DNA of 64,000 nucleotides from Hydrogenothermaceae bacterium (GTDB taxonomy: Bacteria > Aquificota > Aquificia > Aquificales > Hydrogenothermaceae): NCBI GenBank assembly GCA_026418535.1, contig JAOABC010000001.1:1-64000 (forward strand), read 5' to 3'. Both the position numbers and the translations under genes were made by a program. Shown one piece after another: positions 30,224 through 61,953 of this stretch. Under the pieces are notes generated by a model. That model did not search any database. It saw only the letters and a program-made list of their open reading frames with translations, and was not told the origin of the DNA. The first letter of the stretch is position 1, and each line of letters begins with the position of its first letter.

Positions 30224-30295
30224 GGCGGGGTAGCCAAGTGGTAAGGCAGGGGACTGCAAATCCCTTATACGTGGGTTCGATTCCCACCCCCGCCT
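30224..30295 (+). tRNA. tRNA-Cys (anticodon GCA)
   Basis: The sequence folds as a cloverleaf. The acceptor stem pairs GGCGGGG with CCCCGCC, the anticodon stem GGGGA pairs across the loop holding GCA at 30256-30258, and the T arm is GTGGG-TTCGATT-CCCAC. The discriminator base is T at 30295, the U73 expected of tRNA-Cys. The 3' CCA is not encoded and the variable loop is short. Confidence 0.97.
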
Positions 30296-30504: not shown

Positions 30505-30816
30505 TTATGTAGATAAGGCTCTTCTGCATTCTTCGGAAGTTCTCTTCTTTTTTGGAATCACATCTCCATCTAAAAAATCTTTATAAGCCTTTAGGAAAGC
30601 TCTTCTGTGGTCTTCTACTGTATCCGGATTTAACGGTCTGTTCAACATAGATAGGTAGAAAGAAAACCTCTTTAGGATATGGAAACGGTAATTCTCTACT
30701 ATAGTTATATCATGGTCGATCTCAAAAAACTCAAAGAAATCTTCTAAGTCTTTTACTGTTTTCTCTGTTTTACGAACTTTCTTGGAATCTCTTTTCCACT
30801 CTTTGTAGACAGTAAT
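30505..30816 (-). pseudogene. nifW: NifW-like nitrogenase accessory protein, no standard start
   Basis: The frame encodes a NifW-like protein: LEDFFEFFEIDHDITIVENY, then HILKRFSFYLSML and an acidic AFLKAYKDFLDGDV region. NifW helps protect or mature the MoFe protein. The frame is open from 30816 but has no ATG, GTG or TTG ahead of the homology; the only candidates are unusual codons such as ATT. The 5' part overlaps the end of nifN. It may have lost its start, or initiate by coupling at a rare codon. Confidence 0.65.
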
Positions 30817-31609
30817 TTAAAGAGTTCATCAACTTCTTCTATGTTTAAAAGGGATGCGAAGTTGTAGTTTGGTATGTCAAACTTCTCGTAAAGTATTTCT
30901 CCTGCTTCCTTTGCTCCAAATCCGATAGAGAGGGTAAATTGAGAACGACCCATTGAGATAATATCATCAAGAGTAGCCCCCTTCTGGAACAGAGTAGAAC
31001 TTATCTACAGCTCCAGAAAGAGATTCAGACAGGTCTGGGATTATAATCGGTTTAAACCCAAAAGATTCTACTATATCCCTGATTTCATCTATACCCCCCT
31101 GTCAGAAAAGGAGAGGTTATTATGTTTATCTGGTTCTTTACCCTTCTACCCCATTTAGGAATACTATTTACTACTTTATTTACAACTGCGAAGAAACCGT
31201 CTTCTAAAGAACCCTTAAAATCTGGAGTTGAAACAGATAAGATAGGTAGGTATGAAAGTTCCGGATACTTCTGTCTAAACCTAACTATACTACCATCTAT
31301 ATCGTCTCCCCTGACTTCACTTACGGCTGTCGAGAGAATAACTACCAAATCTGGATCTCTTGTTTTTATGACGTTAACGATACTTTCATGGAGGTTAAAG
31401 TCATCACCCATAACTGTAGCTATCTCAGACAAGGCAGTTGTCTGTATAGGAACTACTTCTCTAAAATGTCTTGTTAACATAGCGACTGCAAAGGCTGTGC
31501 ATCCTTGAGAACCATGTTGAATAGGCATGGCTCCCTTGATACCTAAAGATGCTAGAATACCTCCAACAGATGGACTTATCTTTAGCGGATATATAGATAC
31601 ATTCTTCAT
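30753..31609 (-). pseudogene. nifN: Nitrogenase cofactor scaffold NifN, frameshifted
   Basis: NifN with NifE forms the scaffold on which FeMo-cofactor is completed. The N-terminal frame (31085-31609) has MPIQHGSQGCTAFAVAML near residue 28, and the C-terminal frame (30753-30953) has MGRSQFTLSIG. Two breaks separate them. At six C (31094-31099), one fewer restores TGGIDEIRDIV. At five C (30977-30981), one fewer restores EGATLDDIISMGRSQF. The bridging 45 codons translate well between the two repairs. The start ATG lies 2 bases after the nifE stop. Confidence 0.9.
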
Positions 31610-31611
31610 CT

Positions 31612-32966
31612 TACTGACCTCTAACGTACTTCCAAACAGGACTGTAAAGTGTGTTTACGAGATGCTTAGCCATATTTACAATACCTTCGTATCCTGCAAA
31701 AGGATATGCTCTTTCCTGATTTACATCTAAGAAGGGATATTTAGCTTTTAACGCGGTGTACATGTTTCTATCTCCAGCAAGGAGTATATCTACCCTTTCC
31801 TTCTCTATTATCCGGAGTATATCTTTTGCAGAACCGTTCTCTAAAAGACGTTTTTGTCTTTTTTCAAAGCTATGTTTTAATTTCTCTATATCTTTTTTGT
31901 AGATTTTTTATACTGGTTCCTATAACTTCCATTCTAAATTCTTCCAACATAAAAACCATAGACCAACTTTTTACTCCACCTGTGTAGAGGAACACTCTCT
32001 TTCCCTCAAGGAGAGGTAAAAAATCCTTTAACTTCTCTTTGTCTCCCTCTCCTTCATCTCCGTGCATGTGTACACTCTCTCTTTTAAGGCTTCATCATCT
32101 AAATAGTCAGCTATTGTTCTTAAAGTCTTTGTAATCTCTTGGATACCATAGAAAGAACCTTCTAGGTAAGGAATGTTGTATCTCTCCTCCATAGCCTCTG
32201 CAAGTGAGACAAGAGCTTTACTGCATATAACCACGTTTAACTTTGCCCTGTGGGCATAAGTAATCTCTCGGAATGTAGAATCTCCGGAAATGCTTGACAG
32301 AATTCTTATCCCTAACTTCTTGAACACTTGAACATAGGTAATACTTGCCATAACTCTCCAGCTATGTTGTACTCCCCAATAAGATTTATATCAAAAGGAG
32401 TTATAAAATCTGGCTCTCCTGTCCCGCTAACGTAATCTAAAAGAGACTTTCCTGCCAGTTTATTTCCCAGGTTCTTGCTACCTACAAAACCAGGAGAATA
32501 AACAGGCACAACCGGTTTATGTATGATAGAGGAAGCTTTTTTACAAACAGTCTCTATATCCTCCCCAATCATAGCAGTAACACAGGTAATGTATACAAAG
32601 ATGGCTGAGGGGTTGTATTTACTGTTGATCTCTATGCAAGCTTTTAAGAGCTTCTCTTCAGCACCGAAAACCATATCGTTCTCTGTTAGATCCGTTGTGA
32701 ACCAGACCCTATACAACTCTGAAGTACTAGACCTGGTCCCTCTATTATCCCAGCTGCACCCACTACAAGATATAGGACCATTAACAAGGTGAGCTACGTC
32801 TGCGATAGGCAGGTACGATCTGTGCTCCATCAAATGCGCAACCTCCAGCAGCCAGTCCAGGTTTACTCTTTTTCGTACAACCTTTTTTCCTGTCTTCTTC
32901 AGACTTCTCCCTGTTTATAGAACAACTCTTCTCTTCAAAAATTGTATTATCCAACAACTTTGACAT
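31612..32966 (-). pseudogene. nifE: Nitrogenase cofactor scaffold NifE, multiple frameshifts
   Basis: NifE is read in five successive frames. The N-terminus has [22 protein letters not shown]; then [39 protein letters not shown] and [15 protein letters not shown]; later [33 protein letters not shown], and a C-terminus with KAKYPFLDVNQERAYPFAGYEG. Breaks lie near 32815, 32335, 32060 and 31895. Conserved scaffold cysteines are still present in the fragments. No single frame could give a working protein. Confidence 0.92.
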
Positions 32967-32983
32967 AACTGTCCTCTCTTTGA

Positions 32984-33178
32984 CTATTCAACCTTTTTGC
33001 CATTGTAAGTTTTTGGTAGAGCTTCTATTTTCTCCTCAAACTGGAACCTCTATCCGTTTAACAGCTCAATATACGTGTACTCTCCGTCCGTAGTCTGGTT
33101 TATAACCTCTATCTCTAAATCCTTTTTTGGGATATAGGCCATAAGTTTGTCGTTCAGTTTCCTTAGGACTATCTTCAT
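32984..33178 (-). pseudogene. nifT: NifT/FixU, nonsense mutation
   Basis: The 64-codon frame begins MKIVLRKLNDKLMAYIPKKD and ends ALPKTYNGKKVE, matching the small NifT/FixU family usually found after nifK. An in-frame TAG at 33050-33052 interrupts it where the family has NGW; a single G-to-A change from TGG would explain it. This is a substitution, not a homopolymer indel. It sits between nifK and nifE in the usual order. Confidence 0.85.
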
Positions 33179-33203: not shown

Positions 33204-34752
33204 TTATCTTATAAGGTCATAGCTGTAATCAGTTATAGCCATATCTCTAGTGTTGTTGTCTACGTATTCCAGTACTGCGTTTACTATCCAAGTTAGTAGC
33301 TGTATAGCACCTTTATATCCAATAGTAGGAAATCTATGGAGATGATGTCTATCGAATATAGGATAGCCTATCCTTATAAGTTTAACAGGGAAACCTAAAT
33401 CGTATAGATCTCTCTCTAGATACTTGTGATAGGAGGTCCCTATAAGGAAAGGAACAAACTCCTGCATTAAAAGTGTCCTTAGGTGCCACATGTCTTTCTC
33501 AGCATAGACTTTCATCTCTTTCCCTTGGAAGAATTCCTCTTTTAGTTTCTCCATATCTTCCAACCACTCTCTTGTTCCGTTTGTACACATCACATGAACA
33601 GGTTCAGCTCCTAACTCCATCAGAAAACGGGATAGTCCGTAGGCTAAGTCTGGGTCTCCCTGGAATGCAAACTGTTTACCGTATAACCAATAGTAAGAGT
33701 CTGCCATTGCATCTAAGGCTCTTCCTCTTTCTACCTCAATCTGCTCCGGAATCTCTTTACCTGTAAGTTCTGAGATTGCTAAGATAAGTTCATCTGAACC
33801 CTTAATTCCTATAGGATTTACAACTTTTACTTCTTGATCCCAATCTTCTCTTATCAGTTTTTCTGTTTTCCTGGTTGTATATTTCTGTAGTAGTATGGTA
33901 GCTTTAGAGTTTGCAGCATCCTTGAGTTCCTCTAACTTTGTTCCACCGTAATACATTCTGTAGTTACCATCTGTGGGAGAGTCTAAAACATCTGATGGGT
34001 CGCTTAATATTATGTAGTTTACACCAAAGAGATTGAGAATTCTTTTTATCTCCCTAAAGTTCTCTATGTAAGTATCAAAACCAACTATCACATTTATTCT
34101 GTCTTTCCTTTCGCCGGAGGGTTTACTCATCTGGGACAGTATTCCGTACATCATGTTGTCGTAACCTATTATGTGAGAACCTACGAAAGAAGGAGTATGA
34201 GCATATGGAACCGGTAAATCTTCAGGTATGTGTCCTTTCTCCTTGGCATTTTTGATAAAAGCGTTTAGGTCATCTCCTATAACTTCAGCCATACAGGTAG
34301 TGTTGACTGCTATCATACTTGGTTTGTATAGAGTGCAAGCATTCTCCAGGCCTTCGTACATGTTGTTATAACCACCAAAAACTGCAGTATCTTCGGTCAT
34401 AGCACTAGAGCAAGCAAAGAAAGGTTCTTTAAAGTGTCTTGCAAGATGGGTCCTAAAATAAGCATTACACCCTTGAGAACCATGAGAGTATACCAGAGTC
34501 TTTTCAAACCCAATAGCTGCAAAGTATGCACCTAAAGGTTGGCATGCTTTTATAGATTGACCACAAGAGCTTCTCTTTTCCAGTTTGGTTCATGGTATTC
34601 TCTACTCTTATGCCACTCTTTCACTTTTTCTATATCCTCTTCACCGACTCTGTTTTCGTACTTATATTGCTTGTTTTTTAGAAGCTCCTTGAACTCGCTC
34701 TGCTTGAAGAGTTCAAGTAGTCTTTTATGTTTAGTTCTTTATCTATTCCCAT
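33204..34752 (-). pseudogene. nifK: MoFe nitrogenase beta subunit NifK, frameshifted
   Basis: NifK is the beta chain of the MoFe protein. The ATG at 34752 follows GGAGG. Three frames are needed: the first dozen codons, then ELFKQSEFKELLKNKQYKYE to KREAL, then KACQPLGAYFAAIGFEKTL onward to the end at 33204. Breaks are near 34718 and 34560. P-cluster cysteines remain in KACQPLG, SQGCNAYF and NTTCMAEVIGDD. The last 398 residues are open as one frame, so decay is limited to the 5' third. Confidence 0.93.
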
Positions 34753-34779: not shown

Positions 34780-36249
34780 CTATGATCTCCATGGTGGGGT
34801 CAGCATTTTCCATACATTCCCGTTTACAGCCATGTCCACGTCTCTTGCAAATATCTCAAACCCTTCAATTCCATGGTATGGTCCGGAGTAGTCCCAAGAG
34901 TGCATCTGTCTGAACGGTATACCCATCTTCTGGGCTTGGTATTTCTCTTTAATACCACTTCCAAACAAGTCTGGTTTTAGCTTTGACAGTATTTTTTCCA
35001 GTTCAAACTCTGTTGCGTCGTCCACAATTATAGTTGTGTTGTTTATGTAGTGAGTGGTTCTTTCGTAATCGTCATCGTGAGCAAACTCGTAGCCTAAAGT
35101 TATAACACTAGCTCCTAAGTCTTCAAAGGCAGTTACTATATGTCTCGGTTAGTCCACTAACGTACAATGCTATCCTTTTACCCTCTATTCTTGGTCTATA
35201 CTTTTCTATGACTTTCTGGAGCCTAGGACCGTATACTTCGTTTATGAGATACTCTGTTCTTTCTTTGATCTTTTCGTCAAAGAAAGAGGCTATCTTTCTC
35301 ATACTTTCAAATATCTGTGTAGGTCCAAAGAAGTTGTACTCAACCCAAGGTATTCCAAAAGCTTCTTCCATATGTCTTGCTATGTAGTTCATAGAACGGT
35401 AACAGTGTAATCGTTCAGTTTTACTTTCGGTGTATTCACCAGTTCTGAGAGCGTTCCGTCTCCACTCCACTGAGCTACTACATTTAAACTTATATCTTCC
35501 AGTATTTTCCTGGAAGTCCAAGCATCTCCCCCTATGTTATAGTCTCCTATGATAGCTATGTTGTATGGAGAATCTGGTATATCTTGACCGAATTCTTTAG
35601 TATTTACTTGCTTGTTTTCAAAAATCCAGTCTCTTATAGTATCATTGGCTATATGGTGTCCAAGAGACTGAGAAACTCCTCTAAATCCCTCACACCTTAC
35701 TGGAACTACAGGCTTGTTTACCTGTTTTGACATCTGTCTCGCTACAGCTTCTATATCATCTCCTATGAGACCTATAGGACATTCTGACTGTATGGTTATA
35801 CCTTTGTTGAGAGGGAAAAGCATCTCTATCTCTTCGATTATTTTCGTGAGCTTTTTGTCTCCTCCAAACACTACGTCCCTTTCTTGAAAGTCAGAGGTGA
35901 AGTCCATTGTTCCGAAAGTGTTTATACCTGTATGACCAACATAGTAGTTCCTTCTTCCTGACCAAGAGTAGTAGCCACAACCTACAGGTCCATGAGATAT
36001 GTGTATCATATCCTTAACAGGTCCCCAAACCACTCCCTTTGAACCAGCGTAGGCACATCCTCTTACAGACATTACACCCGGTCTGGATTTGACGTTAGAT
36101 TTAGGGACACATTTGGTATCCTTTGGAAAGTTTTCATCTACTATGTTGATATGTTTTTCTCTGTCTTTCTTTGCCTTCTTCGGATAGGATTGTACTATCT
36201 CTTCTACTACGCCTTGAGCTTCTTCTTTTGGTAATACTTCTGTTGTCAT
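34780..36249 (-). pseudogene. nifD: MoFe nitrogenase alpha subunit NifD, frameshifted
   Basis: NifD is the alpha chain carrying FeMo-cofactor. The first frame (286 codons) has P-cluster cysteines in [25 protein letters not shown] and [11 protein letters not shown]. The second frame has [16 protein letters not shown], including the cofactor cysteine region. The third has the cofactor histidine in [13 protein letters not shown]. Breaks near 35411 and 35148 separate them, each fixed by restoring one or two bases. All cofactor ligands survive, so loss appears recent. Confidence 0.94.
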
Positions 36250-36273
36250 GGTAAACCTCCTTTTTACTCTACA

Positions 36274-37160
<887 letters not shown>

Positions 37161-42424: not shown

Positions 42425-43408
42425 ATGAGTCAACCTAGAATAAAACATTACCTGATAAACGAGAAGTATGAAGACCCAGGAATAGTTATAGAGATACCCC
42501 AGCTGGGAGAGTATGTCCTATTTGATGTAGGGAATATCCATAGGTTAGACAGGGAGCTTATAAAGAAGATAACTAAAGTGTTCATAACACATACCCACAT
42601 GGACCACTTTATAGGTTTTGACACTCTACTCAGGTATAAGCTGGGGAGACCCCACACTGTAGAGTTTTTTGGTATCAATCCTCTTGCAGAGAACGTGTAC
42701 GCAAAGCTACAGGGATACACCTGGAACCTTGTTGAGTTCGAACCTCAACTTATCTTCAGAGTAAAGCAGATAAGTGGTGAGCTCTTCGAGACATATGAGT
42801 TCGATATAAAGAAGAAGTTTGCTAAAGACTTCATCTCTGAAGAAAAGATAAAGGATAATGTTATCTACGAGAACAAGTTCTACAGAGTAAGGTTCGCTGT
42901 TTTGGACCATAAGATAAACGTCCTTGGTTACTCTTTTGAGTTCAAGAACAAACTACTACTTAAAAAAGAGAAAGTGGAAGCTCTTCCTTTGAGAGGAAGG
43001 GAAGTGGGAGAGTTTAAAACTTTCTTAGAAGACCAAAATAACAGAGGGAGGACTTTGAGGATAGGTGAGAAACTCTACTTATACGAAGATCTCTTCCAAG
43101 ATTATGCTTACATACAAAAAGGGACAAAGATATCTTACATAACAGATGTGGTTTACAGTCCAGAAAACAGAGAAAAGATAGTGAACTTAGTCAGAGACTC
43201 AGACTACCTTTACTGTGAATCTGTGTTTTTAGAAAGAGATAGGGAACAGGCTGAAAAAGTCTACCACCTTACCACAAAACAGACAGCTGAGATTGCAAAC
43301 AGTGCAAACGTAAAACACCTGATAGTTTTCCACTTCTCCAGAAGGTACGGAAAAAACAAAGAGATAGTTATGAACGAGATAAGAAAGCTATTTCCGGATG
43401 TTTCGTAA
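42425..43408 (+). CDS. Metallo-beta-lactamase-fold hydrolase, RNase Z-like
   Basis: The 327-residue protein has the zinc motif FITHTHMDHFIGFD near residue 57, as in the RNase Z/ElaC group. The later metal ligands would be the aspartate in SYITDVVY near 240 and the histidine in LIVFHFSRRYG near 300. It could mature tRNA 3' ends or act on another phosphodiester. It begins directly at the purL stop and overlaps lpxK by 11 bases. Confidence 0.8.
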   Translation: MSQPRIKHYLINEKYEDPGIVIEIPQLGEYVLFDVGNIHRLDRELIKKITKVFITHTHMDHFIGFDTLLRYKLGRPHTVEFFGINPLAENVYAKLQGYTWNLVEFEPQLIFRVKQISGELFETYEFDIKKKFAKDFISEEKIKDNVIYENKFYRVRFAVLDHKINVLGYSFEFKNKLLLKKEKVEALPLRGREVGEFKTFLEDQNNRGRTLRIGEKLYLYEDLFQDYAYIQKGTKISYITDVVYSPENREKIVNLVRDSDYLYCESVFLERDREQAEKVYHLTTKQTAEIANSANVKHLIVFHFSRRYGKNKEIVMNEIRKLFPDVS

Positions 43409-51080: not shown

Positions 51081-51395
51081 ATTAGAGTAGATAATGTAAG
51101 TAACTCCTTTATAGAAGATCCTACAGCTATCCAACAGAGTTTAGAGATGTCCCAAAAGTTAACACCACAAGGTATAACTATTCCGGATAAAGTTGAAATT
51201 CAGAGTAAGAAATCAAACGTTATGGACAAAGATATTCTAAAGGACACTGAAGAGCTGAAGAAGCTGATAGAAGAGCTCAGCTCTAAACTAAGTTATCTTA
51301 ACAGTCAACTGAAAATGAAAATAGAGATAGACTCAGAGATAGGCCAGCCGATAGTTAAGATAATGGATATAAATACAAACGAAGTAATAAGGTAA
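51081..51395 (+). CDS. flaG: FlaG-type flagellar protein, start lost or unusual
   Basis: The acidic-then-helical small protein has the FlaG pattern, ending KMKIEIDSEIGQPIVKIMD and TNEVIR. An ATG-started version begins at 51147 (82 residues). The same frame is open upstream to a TAA at 51069 and encodes AIRVDNVSNSFIEDP, which looks like the true N-terminus but has no ATG, GTG or TTG. FlaG influences filament length. The start codon appears mutated. Confidence 0.65.
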   Translation: MRVDNVSNSFIEDPTAIQQSLEMSQKLTPQGITIPDKVEIQSKKSNVMDKDILKDTEELKKLIEELSSKLSYLNSQLKMKIEIDSEIGQPIVKIMDINTNEVIR

Positions 51396-51494
51396 GTACC
51401 CCCAGATTATATAATAAACATAATAAAAATATAAACAAACTGTTGGGTGTTTTGTTTGAAGAGAAAGCTTAACTAAAAAGGGAAGATGATTAAA

Positions 51495-52823
51495 ATGACC
51501 GGAGAAATAAGTGTATCAGGATTATCTGGAGGCTTTGACTATAACAGATTGGAGAAAATACAGACTCTAAAGAGTCAGCAGCTGTATTTAGCTCAAACAA
51601 AGCAGAGTCAGCTAGAGTCAAAAAAGGTGTTATTCAGGACATACAGAATCTTCTTAAAAACATAAAAAACTTAGTAACTTCTTTCACAGACCCTGCTTTA
51701 ATAAACTCCAAGAGTATATCTTCTTCTGACGAAAATGTCCTCTCTGCATCCGTTACAGACCAGACAAAAGTTCAGATAGGAACATACCAGACCTCTGTAG
51801 ATCGACTAGCACAGAATGCAGTTTATACCTCTAGTGTTGGTATTACCAGTAAAGATACAGCTATAGCAGGTATTAGCAATGGGACTTTGACCATCAACCA
51901 AAAAGGGTTGAATTTTAACATAGTTTATGACTCTACATTTTTTCTACAAGCTTTGGCAGACCAGATAAATGCAGTAGATCAAACTTACAATGGAGATTTT
52001 AGGGTTTCCGTAGTGAATGTAGGAACTTCCTCCTCCCCACAGTACAAACTAGTTATTTCCTCTACAAAAACAGGAACAGAAAATGATATCACTATAACAG
52101 ACAGTGGTAATCTATTAAGTAAACTTGATCTCAGAAAAGTAAAAACTGCACAAAATGCACAGATAACTGTTAATGGATTGGAGGTAGAAAAGTCTACAAA
52201 CCAGTTTAACGATGTGATAGAGGGTATGAGTTTTACCGCAAAAAGAACCGGAAATGTAGATGTTATAGTTGGAGAGGACATTAAGCCTTTGAAAGACAGT
52301 TTAGCTAATTTAGTAAATCAGTATAACAGCTTGCTAGGCAAGATTAACACAGAAACTAGTAAGGGTGGTAAGCTGGCAAGAGAGTATGGTTTAAACCAGC
52401 TTAGGTCTACAATTTACAGATAACTTGAAGACTTAGTTAATGCTGATATAATAAAGTTTGACAGGACGTCCGGAACTCTAAGCTTAAACAGTTCGAAGCT
52501 TGAAGAGATCTATAACAACACTTCAAACACATCCCTCTCCGGATTGATAAAGAACAGAAGTGAACTATTTTCCGCCCCATCACAGATAAAGACCAACCTA
52601 TCCCAGTATCTAGAAGAAACTACTGTACTAGGTGGAACTGATAAAGTCCTACGACAAACAGATAGCATCCTTAAAAGATAGTATGGAGAGAATGTCTAGG
52701 AGAGTCCAGATGGAGATGGAGGTCTTAAAAAGGCAGTTTATCTATATGGAATCTATACAAGTTCAGTATAATGCGATCGGTATGAGGATGCAACAAACTT
52801 TTGGATTGAACAATAAACAGTAG
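51495..52823 (+). pseudogene. fliD: Filament cap protein FliD, disrupted
   Basis: FliD caps the filament and folds flagellin. The start MTGEISVSGLSGGFDYNRL is followed by a frame change near 51620, then a long frame with VSVVNVGTSSSPQYKLVISS and NDITITDSGNLL. A TAA at 52421-52423 interrupts TIYR-LEDLVN; one substitution would explain it. Another frame change near 52645 leads to the coiled C-terminus KDSMERMSRRVQMEMEVLKR. At least three lesions are present. Confidence 0.88.
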
Positions 52824-55746: not shown

Positions 55747-56127
55747 TTACTTGAAAAAGTCTAAAAGAGAGAGGTTCTTTATAGAGTTAAAGCTTGCTAT
55801 TAAAGCTTCATAAGTTGTCTTTGCCTTCTGTAGGTTAGTTATAGCCTCCACTGTGTCAGCATCCTCAAAGTTGGATATGAGGTTATTGTTAAAGACTCTG
55901 TTTTGCTGATAAGAGAATTTTAGGTCTTCCACTATTTTAAGCTGTGTTCCTATAACCGATGTTTGTTGTAGTACAGCAGCCAGATCTTTGTCAAAAGCTT
56001 CTAGTATCTTCATAGGATTTCCGTTTACGTCTATGGTTGCATTGTGGAGTTCACCTAAGCTTCCTGTTCTAGACACAGCTCTGTTGATTATATCCACTAT
56101 CTTGTCTATAGCCTCCGTGATCAACAT
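55747..56127 (-). pseudogene. flgL: Hook-filament junction protein FlgL, 3' fragment
   Basis: Only the C-terminal part is present, with NNNLISNFEDADTVEAITNL and LQKAKTTYEALIASFNSIKN, the D0/D1 coiled-coil typical of FlgL. The upstream two-thirds are missing. The fragment ends at the fliL remnant on the opposite strand near 56120, so a deletion or inversion joined the two. Confidence 0.8.
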
Positions 56128-56347
56128 CTTGGAAGTTCAGGATGATAAGATAAAAGCAGAGGCAACAAAAAGGATGCCTCAGATAGAAGACTCTATAAAT
56201 ACGCTGCTATTTACAAAAACATCTGAAGAACTACCTTCTCCGGAAGGTATAGAGAAGCTAAAAGGAGAGATTATAAAAAGAACGAATGCAATTTTACCTC
56301 TTGGTGGTGTGAAGGATGTGTACTTCACAGAGTTTATATTCAAATGA
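56115..56347 (+). pseudogene. fliL: FliL, 3' fragment
   Basis: The frame encodes a FliL C-terminus: EATKRMPQIEDSINTLLFTK, then a GIEKLKGEIIKRTNAIL stretch and VYFTEFIFK. FliL is a stator-associated inner-membrane protein. The transmembrane N-terminus is gone, and the frame runs backwards into flgL antisense sequence, showing a chimeric junction near 56115-56125. The downstream order fliN-fliO-fliP-fliQ-fliR-flhB is typical. Confidence 0.8.
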
Positions 56348-56858: not shown

Positions 56859-57551
56859 CACTTTCTTCCTTTTTTCTTTACCTTCTTTGGGTCCTCATAT
56901 GCCGATACTTTAAACGATACTTTAACAGCTTTTACCCGACTTGATACTACACTGAAGATACTACTTATAGTAACACTTTTGAGTATAGCACCATCTTTAC
57001 TCATAGCTATGACTTCTTTTACCAGGATAGTGATAGCTTTGTCTCTGTTGAGACATGCTATAAGAGTTTTACTGCACCTCCAAACCAGGTTATAGTAGCA
57101 CTCTCTCTGTTCTTAACTTTCTTTATAATAAAACCGGTCTTTGAGAAGATAAACCAGGTTAGTATCCAGCCGTATTTAAAGAAGGAGATATCTGATATAA
57201 AAGCCATAGAAAGAGCTAAAGAGCCTATAAAAGAGTTTATGCTGAAGAACACAAGAAAGGAAGATTTAAAACTATTCATAGATATATCAAAGGAGAAACC
57301 TAAAGAGCCGATGGATGTCAGCATGACCACTTTGATTCCAGCTTTCATGATCAGTGAGATAAAGACAGCTTTTGAGATCGTGTTTATCATATACTTACCT
57401 TTTTTAGTGATAGACTTTATAGTAGCAAGTATTCTTATATCTGATGATGATTCTTCCTATGTTTATATCTCTTCCTTTTAAACTTATGCTGTTTGTTTTG
57501 GCGGACGGTTGGGAACTTCTGACTAAAGCTCTCATACAAAGTTATAAGTAG
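56849..57551 (+). pseudogene. fliP: Flagellar export gate protein FliP, frameshifted
   Basis: FliP forms the core of the export gate. The signal-like start leads to LLIVTLLSIAPSLLIAMTSF. A shift near 57065 precedes PPNQVIVALSLFLTFFIIKP. PMDVSMTTLIPAFMISEIKT is the conserved loop before the third helix. A second shift near 57440 precedes the end [20 protein letters not shown]. The stop TAG is adjacent to the fliQ GTG. Confidence 0.88.
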
Positions 57552-58608: not shown

Positions 58609-59664
58609 ATGCCTGCTTAAAGACCCAAGCAAGACAGAAAAGGCAACACCTCGAAGACGTCAGAAAGCCAGAGAAGAAGGACAAGTCCTCAGAAGTCAGG
58701 ACATACCAATATCAGCTACATTGATAGGTGTGTTTCTGATGTTTATTTTTATCTACCCTTTGGTTACAGAGTGATGATGAACTACTTTAAATAAACATTC
58801 TCAAACCCTGTATACCTTATACCTTCTATGAACTCAAGCTTTGTACTCCATACAGCAAAGACAATCTTATAATGCTACTTCCCGTGTTGTTGTTCTTGCT
58901 TTTAGTAGGCGTTATGTCAAATATAGCCCAGTTTGGTTTTCTATTTACACTAAAACCACTAACCCCAAAACTTGACAAGATAAATCCATTCTCCGGATTA
59001 AGGAGGATTTTCTCCCTTACAACAGTCTTTGAACTTGTAAGGAGCATCTTAAAACTTATAATTGCGGTAGTGTGGTCTCTTACTTTGTTGTGAGTTATCT
59101 TTTAACCGGATTCTTCCGGTTTGCTACCATCTCCTTTGGTGACCAGGTGCTCAATTCATAAAGACTATTATGGTTCTTATATTTTCATTCGCTGTCTTAT
59201 CTATTCCTATAGCGGTTATTGACTTCTTCTACAGAAAGTATGAGTATGAGGAAAACTTAAAGATGACAAAGGAAGAGGTAAAAGAGGAGAGAAAGAGTTA
59301 TGAAGGAAACCCTACTGTAAAGAGAGAGATAAGAAAGAGAATGAGGATGTTACCTTTAAGGAGGATGGTAAAGGAAGTTCCAAAGGTAGATGTGGTGACA
59401 AACCCAGAACACTTTGCAGTTGCTCTGAAGTATGAAAAGGGCAAGATGGATGCTCCAAAAGTGATAGCAAAAAGACAGGATAACATAGCTTTAAAGATAA
59501 AAGAAGTTGCCAGAGAGAATAATGTTAAAATCGTAGAAGACCCACCACTTGCAAGAGGACTCTACAAGTCCTGTGATATAGGAGAGTATATTCCAGAGAA
59601 GTTCTACGTGGCTGTTGCTAAGATATTAGCCCAGATATACAAAGCTAAAAAAGTTAGGGTTTAG
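58609..59664 (+). pseudogene. flhB: Flagellar export switch protein FlhB, disrupted
   Basis: FlhB controls export specificity. The start region has the conserved KTEKATPRRRQKAREEGQV but the frame shifts right after the ATG. The middle has TLKPLTPKLDKINPFSGLRR. A short segment near 59095-59165 is unreadable, possibly a deletion. The last 160 codons are open. The autocleavage site is NPEH in place of the usual NPTH. Confidence 0.88.
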
Positions 59665-60453: not shown

Positions 60454-61192
60454 GCTTCTCTGCTCCTTCCTTAGTTTTCTGTTCCTTTAGGTAAGCCTCT
60501 TTATCTGTTCCAGTTATAAGGTTTATCTCTATTTTTCTGTTCATAGACATTCCCAGAGCAGATGTGTTAGGTGCTAAAGTCTAGTATCAGTATAACCAAC
60601 GGCTGTAAAGATCTTTGGCTCTAAGCCCTGTTCTATGAGAAACCTTACAACTGACGCAGACCTTGCTGCAGATAGCTTCCAGTTTGATTGGAAAACCATA
60701 ACCTGTAGAGGTGGTATGTTATCTATATGACCTTCAACCTCTACGGTAGATTGCCTTCTTTTATAACTTTACTAACTTCCTGCAGAAGATTTTGACTATC
60801 TTCTATTATCTAAACACTACAAGGTGGAAAGAGTATGTAGTCAAGTATCCTTATCCTCATACCCATGGGTATCAACTCAACTTGGACTTTACCCTCTAAG
60901 TTAAGCTGTTTTATTATCTTCTCCACCCTCTCCTTTATCTTCTTCCTTGCATCATCTCTTTTCTGTTTTACACCTACTCCTTCTATGATTGATGGAGGTG
61001 CGAAAGTAGAGATTGGTTTAAAACTAAAGACTGAGGATATAGCCTCAACGAAGGATGCAAGCTTTTTTGTCTATGGTGGATCATGGTAAACAGTGCGATA
61101 AAGAGAGCTAGGAGCAAGCTTAGAAAGTCTGCGTAAGGAACTGCCCACCTTTCCCTAGCTCCATGTTCCTCTTGCTTCTTCTTTTTAGCCAA
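60443..61192 (-). pseudogene. motB: Flagellar stator protein MotB, disrupted
   Basis: MotB anchors the stator to peptidoglycan. The start is the TTG at 61192; ERWAVPYADFLSLLLALFIA holds the stator's functional aspartate in YADF. After a frame change near 61060 comes FVEAISSVFSF and then VKQKRDDARKKIKERVEKII. The OmpA-like C-terminus is recognisable as NWKLSAARSASVVRFLIEQG. Stops occur near 60580, 60750 and 60810. The whole gene is a string of short frames. Confidence 0.85.
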
Positions 61193-61953
61193 AATTAACC
61201 ACTCTCTCTAGGTTCGGCTTTCCAGTGTATATTATAAGCTACTCTCTTAACATCTTAGGATTCTTGGAAAGGGCTATCCCTATAATTCCTTCTAAAATCA
61301 TCTCTCTTGTCTTTATTATATCCCTGGCTTTTGCCTTCATCTAGTGACCCCAAGGACCAAAAAGTAGATAAGAGGAAACTATACCTGTAACTGTAGCTGT
61401 AAAAGCTCCTGCTATACCTGCAGCCATCTAACAGGATTCTCCAATCTCTTCAGATCTAGTATAAGTCTCATAACCGCTTCAACTAAACAGAAAACCGGCG
61501 TTGTCTATCCAGCTGTTATCCAGTACTTTGCAGCACCTTCGTAGTATTCTTCTGCAGCCTCTATCTCCATCTCTAATCTCTCTCTTATCACTTCTGGATC
61601 TAGACCGTCAACCAGCATCTGCAACCCTTTTTGAAAGAAAAAGTGTTCTATACTTCCTATATCTGCCTCTATAGAGAGTATACCTTCCTTGTCTTCTCAG
61701 CTATCTTTATGATCTGCTCTAACGTCTCCTCTGGATTTAGTTGAGGATTACAGAATACTATCTTTAACTCTTTATAAGCAGCAACTACATACTTCTGCTT
61801 TGTAGCTACAACAGCTGCTGCCAGTGTAGTAGGTGCAACGATTATTATAGAAAATATATGAATCAGACTTGCAGGGTTTTCACCTTCCATAATATCCCTT
61901 ATAGCAAAAAGAACCAAAGCAGCTATAATCCCACCAATAGTGGCTAAGTCCAT
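61185..61953 (-). pseudogene. motA: Flagellar stator protein MotA, disrupted
   Basis: MotA is the proton-channel stator subunit. The start MDLATIGGIIAALVLFAI and LIHIFSIIIVAPTTLAAAVV fit the first two helices (61669-61953). The frame stops at VYSL (61669) and the remaining 480 bases contain only short frames, some still reading LRMVDGLDPEVIRERLEMEI. The end overlaps the motB start. Its ATG is directly next to the ygfZ stop. Confidence 0.85.

Follow-up and report, generated by a model that had tools for sequence, protein, structure and literature searches.

The nifT gene of a Hydrogenothermaceae bacterium carries a premature TAG codon, very probably a nonsense mutation that arose by substitution inside a nif cluster that has itself decayed. 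The window, i.e. the whole stretch of DNA that was analyzed, comprises 64,000 nucleotides. The nifT frame lies on its minus strand (32984-33178), starts with ATG at 33178 and extends over 64 codons. Codon 43 is TAG, which appears as CTA at 33050-33052 of the plus strand, and the frame's own end codon (32986-32984) is also TAG. The frame translates into MKIVLRKLNDKLMAYIPKKDLEIEVINQTTDGEYTYIELLNG, the premature stop, RFQFEEKIEALPKTYNGKKVE and the terminal stop. The initial annotation had described a premature TAG in an otherwise complete frame, and both sequence and frame confirm this. Translation would end after 42 residues. The motif GGAGGGG ahead of the ATG is a possible candidate for a ribosome-binding site.

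The Pfam profile PF06988 (NifT) matched the window frame with an E value of 2.5e-12 and 47.3 bits, well above the curated cut-off of 22.6, and the match contains one TAG. The frame is located among nif genes, 3' of nifK (nifK 34752-33204, nifT 33178-32984, nifE 32975-31610). Its start, a KKDLE motif, an NG motif and the PKT region align with intact members of the NifT/FixU family (PF06988). In contrast to these, it is not open across the whole domain. The window nifT is thus a genuine NifT gene in a broken state. Disabling lesions relative to intact orthologues, the hallmark of a pseudogene, were found in nifT and in the other nif genes. NifT is scarce in the phylum, since only 6 of 136 genomes, the source genome among them, gave a match at E 1e-4.

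In order to examine the position of the stop, the window NifT was aligned with ten intact sequences. These came from SKW173, UBA2488, three other Aquificota genomes and five plasmids (Sinorhizobium, Bradyrhizobium, two of Rhizobium, Cupriavidus), the plasmid copies being picked from the 12 records listed, out of 234 that matched. L071, which has no usable frame, and matches under the cut-off were omitted. Where the window NifT has its stop, nine of the ten intact sequences carry tryptophan. The exception, with cysteine, is SKW173, a metagenome-assembled genome titled Hydrogenothermaceae and the only other genome of the same genus in the comparison. Judged from the alignment, the tryptophan is strongly, not absolutely, conserved. 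The earlier placement of the stop at a conserved tryptophan of an NGW motif holds insofar as the column is mostly tryptophan, and has to be qualified for the closest genome compared. Since UBA2488 has TGG at this column, TGG is the likely ancestral codon, and a change from TGG to TAG in the source lineage would be the simplest and most likely origin of the stop. The intact UBA2488 nifT offers 44 single-base routes to a stop codon, two of them at the TGG codon in question; a stop at this codon is unremarkable by itself. Named relatives were not found with the NifT protein as query, and a nifK query retrieved two.

Six nif genes were found in the genome, arranged in the window in the order nifH, nifD, nifK, nifT, nifE, nifN, and alignment by hand revealed that all six are broken. 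A script-based comparison with SKW173 and UBA2488 located 12 internal frameshifting indels in five of the genes (nifH 1, nifD 2, nifK 2, nifE 5, nifN 2). Only one is an insertion, of 8 bases; the other eleven are deletions. Eight of the 12 touch no homopolymer of at least 4 bases and four touch one. All five genes lie on the minus strand. The nifH pseudogene (36270-37136) shows a 1-base deletion after 36794 and an altered 3' end; its pieces still match at E 5e-81, yet below the curated cut-off. The nifD pseudogene (34780-36249) has a 1-base deletion after 35410 and a 2-base deletion after 35150. In the nifK pseudogene (33204-34752) a single base is deleted after 34718 and another after 34554, both close to the start, and the remainder forms an open reading frame of 398 codons. 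The nifE pseudogene (31610-32975) contains five frameshifting indels, among them the 8-base insertion near 32336, which reads as a tandem duplication. The nifN pseudogene (30740-31612) carries two 2-base deletions and is truncated, matching about 63% of the SKW173 protein. A tRNA-Cys is encoded at 30224-30295, just beyond the truncated nifN end; the SKW173 stretch that matches this region adjoins thiE, upstream of nifH.

A second nifH was not found in the genome, where the two remaining matches scored 25.8 and 21.4 bits (none above 26). A nifB was not matched in the source genome at E 1e-10, whereas nifB matches above the cut-off are present in SKW173 and in the genome of UBA2488. Measured against a functional set of intact nifH, nifD, nifK, nifE, nifN and nifB, five genes are broken and the sixth was not found. 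Each of these breaks, as well as the missing nifB, is expected to end nitrogen fixation. The source cell probably no longer fixes nitrogen.

The nif clusters of SKW173 and UBA2488 share the nifH-D-K-T-E-N order with the window, and blastn pieces over nifH and nifD-nifK are 77-81% identical. They differ from the window in having nifB and further genes downstream of nifN, read as putative nifX and PII-like genes. Apart from one frameshift in the SKW173 nifE, none of their nif frames is interrupted, whereas in the window all six are broken. The SKW173 nifE (L007:9460-10823) is split by this one frameshift where seven A follow one another; the break may be a genuine first lesion, or may stem from slippage or from faulty assembly. 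UBA2488 has an additional open reading frame of 370 codons between nifT and nifE (L006:5491-6603).

Compared with SKW173, pN was 0.05 for nifH, 0.08 for nifD and 0.10 for nifK, all below the median of 177 intact genes, which is 0.145; in this comparison the synonymous sites have come close to saturation. These low values argue that selection lasted until recently and that the decay is young. Most of the nif divergence would have arisen under selection, and the decay would be recent relative to the split from SKW173. Between SKW173 and UBA2488, which belong to different families, the synonymous difference is 0.23-0.32 for nifH, nifD and nifK and 0.73-0.82 for nifT and nifN (L007:5200-12136, L006:1241-9572). 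This comparison suggests either that nifHDK was transferred as a block whose breakpoint lies near nifK/nifT or that a contig was misbinned.

Several motility genes in the window are also damaged. On the plus strand, a flaG-like gene (51081-51410) is interrupted by TAA at codon 107 of 132, close to its 3' end, fliD (51495-52811) is frameshifted, with details that are less certain at 51% identity, fliP (56895-57548) is frameshifted, and flhB (58619-59661) carries frameshifts and a TAA; its SKW173 copy was checked directly and is open. On the minus strand, a remnant of the flagellin family (55750-56265) covers 54% of the SKW173 protein, the motB pseudogene (60580-61192) contains six frameshifting indels and a TAG, and the motA pseudogene (61218-61953) has four TAG codons in register, with flanks that are 88-94% identical, besides two internal frameshifts. 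Only the last third of fliR was seen, in a short open reading frame. The genes fliS and fliQ match their families over nearly the whole length. Given these two, the loss of motility does not appear to be a complete collapse.

The premature TAG and the frameshifts might be consensus sequencing or assembly errors, an explanation that we consider very unlikely. Base 33051 is known from the assembly consensus alone, some long-read data can contain consensus errors that turn G into A, and the four indels at homopolymers could in part be errors. A control comparison addressed the background of broken genes. Open reading frames of SKW173 of at least 120 codons were compared with the source genome, using stretches that represent about half of the source genome, including the window, and approximately 822 kb of SKW173. 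The references were supplemented by the UBA2488 nifT and, since the SKW173 nifE is itself split, by the UBA2488 nifE. The first comparison set yielded 226 places: 177 were intact, 22 lay at the edges of stretches, 5 were partial and 22 were flagged; several of the flags were stops close to match ends. The second set yielded 127 places with 4 flagged. Under the merged automatic rule, 304 of 313 places outside nif and the motility region were unbroken and nine were broken; the rule produces false negatives and scores a partial match as unbroken, which makes 304 an upper bound on intact genes. Under the same rule only one of the five nif places was unbroken and four were broken (Fisher p 8e-6 against 304/313). 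In the motility region, where the SKW173 references are open by construction, six of ten places were broken, and the flagellin remnant remained unflagged. The rule missed nifD, in which one hit bridged both indels, and did not admit nifT, the identity of which was below the threshold; both were judged by hand.

By alignment, five of the nine broken places elsewhere were judged real and four doubtful. Four of the real ones belong to neither the nif nor the motility module: three genes that resemble an acetyl-CoA synthetase (L050:3041-4912), a LonB protease (L051:13719-15931) and an SNF2-type helicase (L098), and a gene of low identity (L054). The fifth, located outside the motility region of the window, is fliK-like (L107, with a weak FliK match just below the Pfam cut-off). 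The doubtful ones are L049, two places at L060 and L113. In the reverse control, 4 of 326 SKW173 places were flagged against open reading frames of the source genome. The nifE flag was judged real, and the other three, in short open reading frames, spurious.

Against an error speaks that 304 of 313 other compared places in the same assembly are unbroken and that the lesions cluster in nif and motility genes. The 8-base insertion, the gene truncation and the missing nifB would also be hard to obtain from read errors. The damage is judged biological because assembly-wide errors would not give lesions clustered in this way. The initial annotation had likewise regarded the nif damage as biological, a view supported by the 12 indels, the truncated nifN, the unmatched nifB and the unbroken state of most other places. 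It had, however, called the amber codon the cleanest proof. This does not stand, as a single substitution is weaker than the surrounding lesions and the assembly-wide pattern. The proof rests more on the genome-wide pattern of lesions than on the amber codon.

A biological TAG could still be read through by an amber suppressor or by local recoding, so that NifT would be made. We regard this as extremely improbable. Recognizable NifT sequence does continue past the TAG, and TAG predominates among the nonsense codons in pseudogenes of the source genome (9 of 12 in the hand-curated set). In the suggested check for amber suppressor tRNA genes, no CTA anticodon was present among 33 distinct tRNAs with 31 anticodons (35 places with the Rfam tRNA model; ARAGORN), in a list that is incomplete, lacking tRNA-Ile and tRNA-Ala(TGC). 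The leucine tRNA whose anticodon is TAG is no suppressor, since it decodes CUA. The 177 intact genes end with TAG in 53, TGA in 61 and TAA in 63 cases, and TAG also terminates nifT itself. UAG appears to be an ordinary stop in the source genome, and amber suppression of nifT is unlikely. Moreover, the partner nif genes are frameshifted, which would leave NifT with nothing to serve.

The lean to TAG derives from a script that listed 16 nonsense codons as robust (12 TAG, 4 TAA, 0 TGA). Six were dropped as artefacts: three lie in L049, an open reading frame that overlaps another, one lies in L113, a partial match with poor alignment, and two, in L094 and at 43380 of the window, are no more than four codons from a start. 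The nifT stop was added by hand (flank score 0.38 against a filter of 0.4), which gave 9 TAG and 2 TAA, and a TAA and a TAG in fliD, whose flanks scored low, were kept out. A second reference set contributed 1 TAG and 2 TAA, of which two in short open reading frames at L060 were dropped and 1 TAA was left. Nine TAG among 12 correspond to p 0.015 at an expected share of 0.4, taken from a codon usage of 0.38-0.43. Four of the nine TAG codons lie in motA, and with motA counted once the lean falls to 6 of 9 (p 0.10), which is not significant. Because the test was post hoc and hand-curated, no effect is claimed.

The nifT product itself is dispensable for diazotrophic growth in three other bacterial species. 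In PMC6428710, a nifT deletion in Leptolyngbya boryana left diazotrophic growth unimpaired and raised acetylene reduction, and Klebsiella and Azotobacter are cited as cases in which nifT is without effect on diazotrophic growth. The stop is unlikely to be the cause of the loss of nitrogen fixation. Since nifT is dispensable in these three species, the stop reveals little about the timing or the cause of the loss of nitrogen fixation. That nifT alone was lost as dispensable and another nif set still supports nitrogen fixation would agree with the deletion phenotypes, but its probability is practically negligible, as no second nifH was found, nifB was unmatched, nifH, nifD, nifK, nifE and nifN are all broken, and only the small part of the genome that is missing from the assembly could hold further nif genes.

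A nonsense mutation within a decayed cluster is consistent with a broader pattern. Reductive evolution of bacterial genomes proceeds by deletion-biased small indels, nonsense changes and the loss of whole functional modules. The same features are found in the source genome, which differs from this general process in that nitrogen fixation and motility are affected together. Dead nifH genes in Aquificae are already in print. According to PMC6307998, Aquificae nifH amplicons from Nakabusa hot springs (NifH-OTUs A13 to A24) are frameshifted by a one-base deletion and were called pseudogenes, and some also carry a point-mutation stop. These pseudogenes are mentioned again in PMC9493357. The group A NifH-OTUs were compared with Thermocrinis albus and Hydrogenobacter thermophilus, and two Aquificales isolates have nifH and lack nifE (PMC6307998). 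The window nifH is likewise frameshifted by a one-base deletion. The Nakabusa deletion is placed at nifH position 406 (A. vinelandii numbering), that of the window at about base 343 (36794), and the two look like distinct events. Also, the Nakabusa data, as described there, are amplicons of one gene, whereas the window displays the whole nif cluster and motility genes. A search of the open-licence literature found no report of such decay in Hydrogenothermaceae.

Taken together, the ancestor would have had a working nifHDKTEN cluster, on which selection was then lost. Afterwards, nifN would have been truncated, nifB would have been lost, and deletions, one short insertion and one nonsense change would have accumulated; the nifT change probably followed or accompanied the loss of selection. 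The nifT stop is ordinary pseudogenization, a gene loss seen partway. More interesting than the stop, if mildly so, is that nitrogen fixation and motility decay together. It is conceivable, though somewhat short of probable, that this lineage, which presumably inhabits hot springs like its family, is midway through losing two costly modules together, nitrogen fixation and flagellar motility, that its sister already has a nifE lesion and that the lesions are young enough to order the losses from strains. Nif genes detected by homology need not mean nitrogen fixation, a warning that was already in print for Aquificae (PMC6307998). The joint decay beside a nearly intact sister genome could help to date and order the loss of nitrogen fixation.
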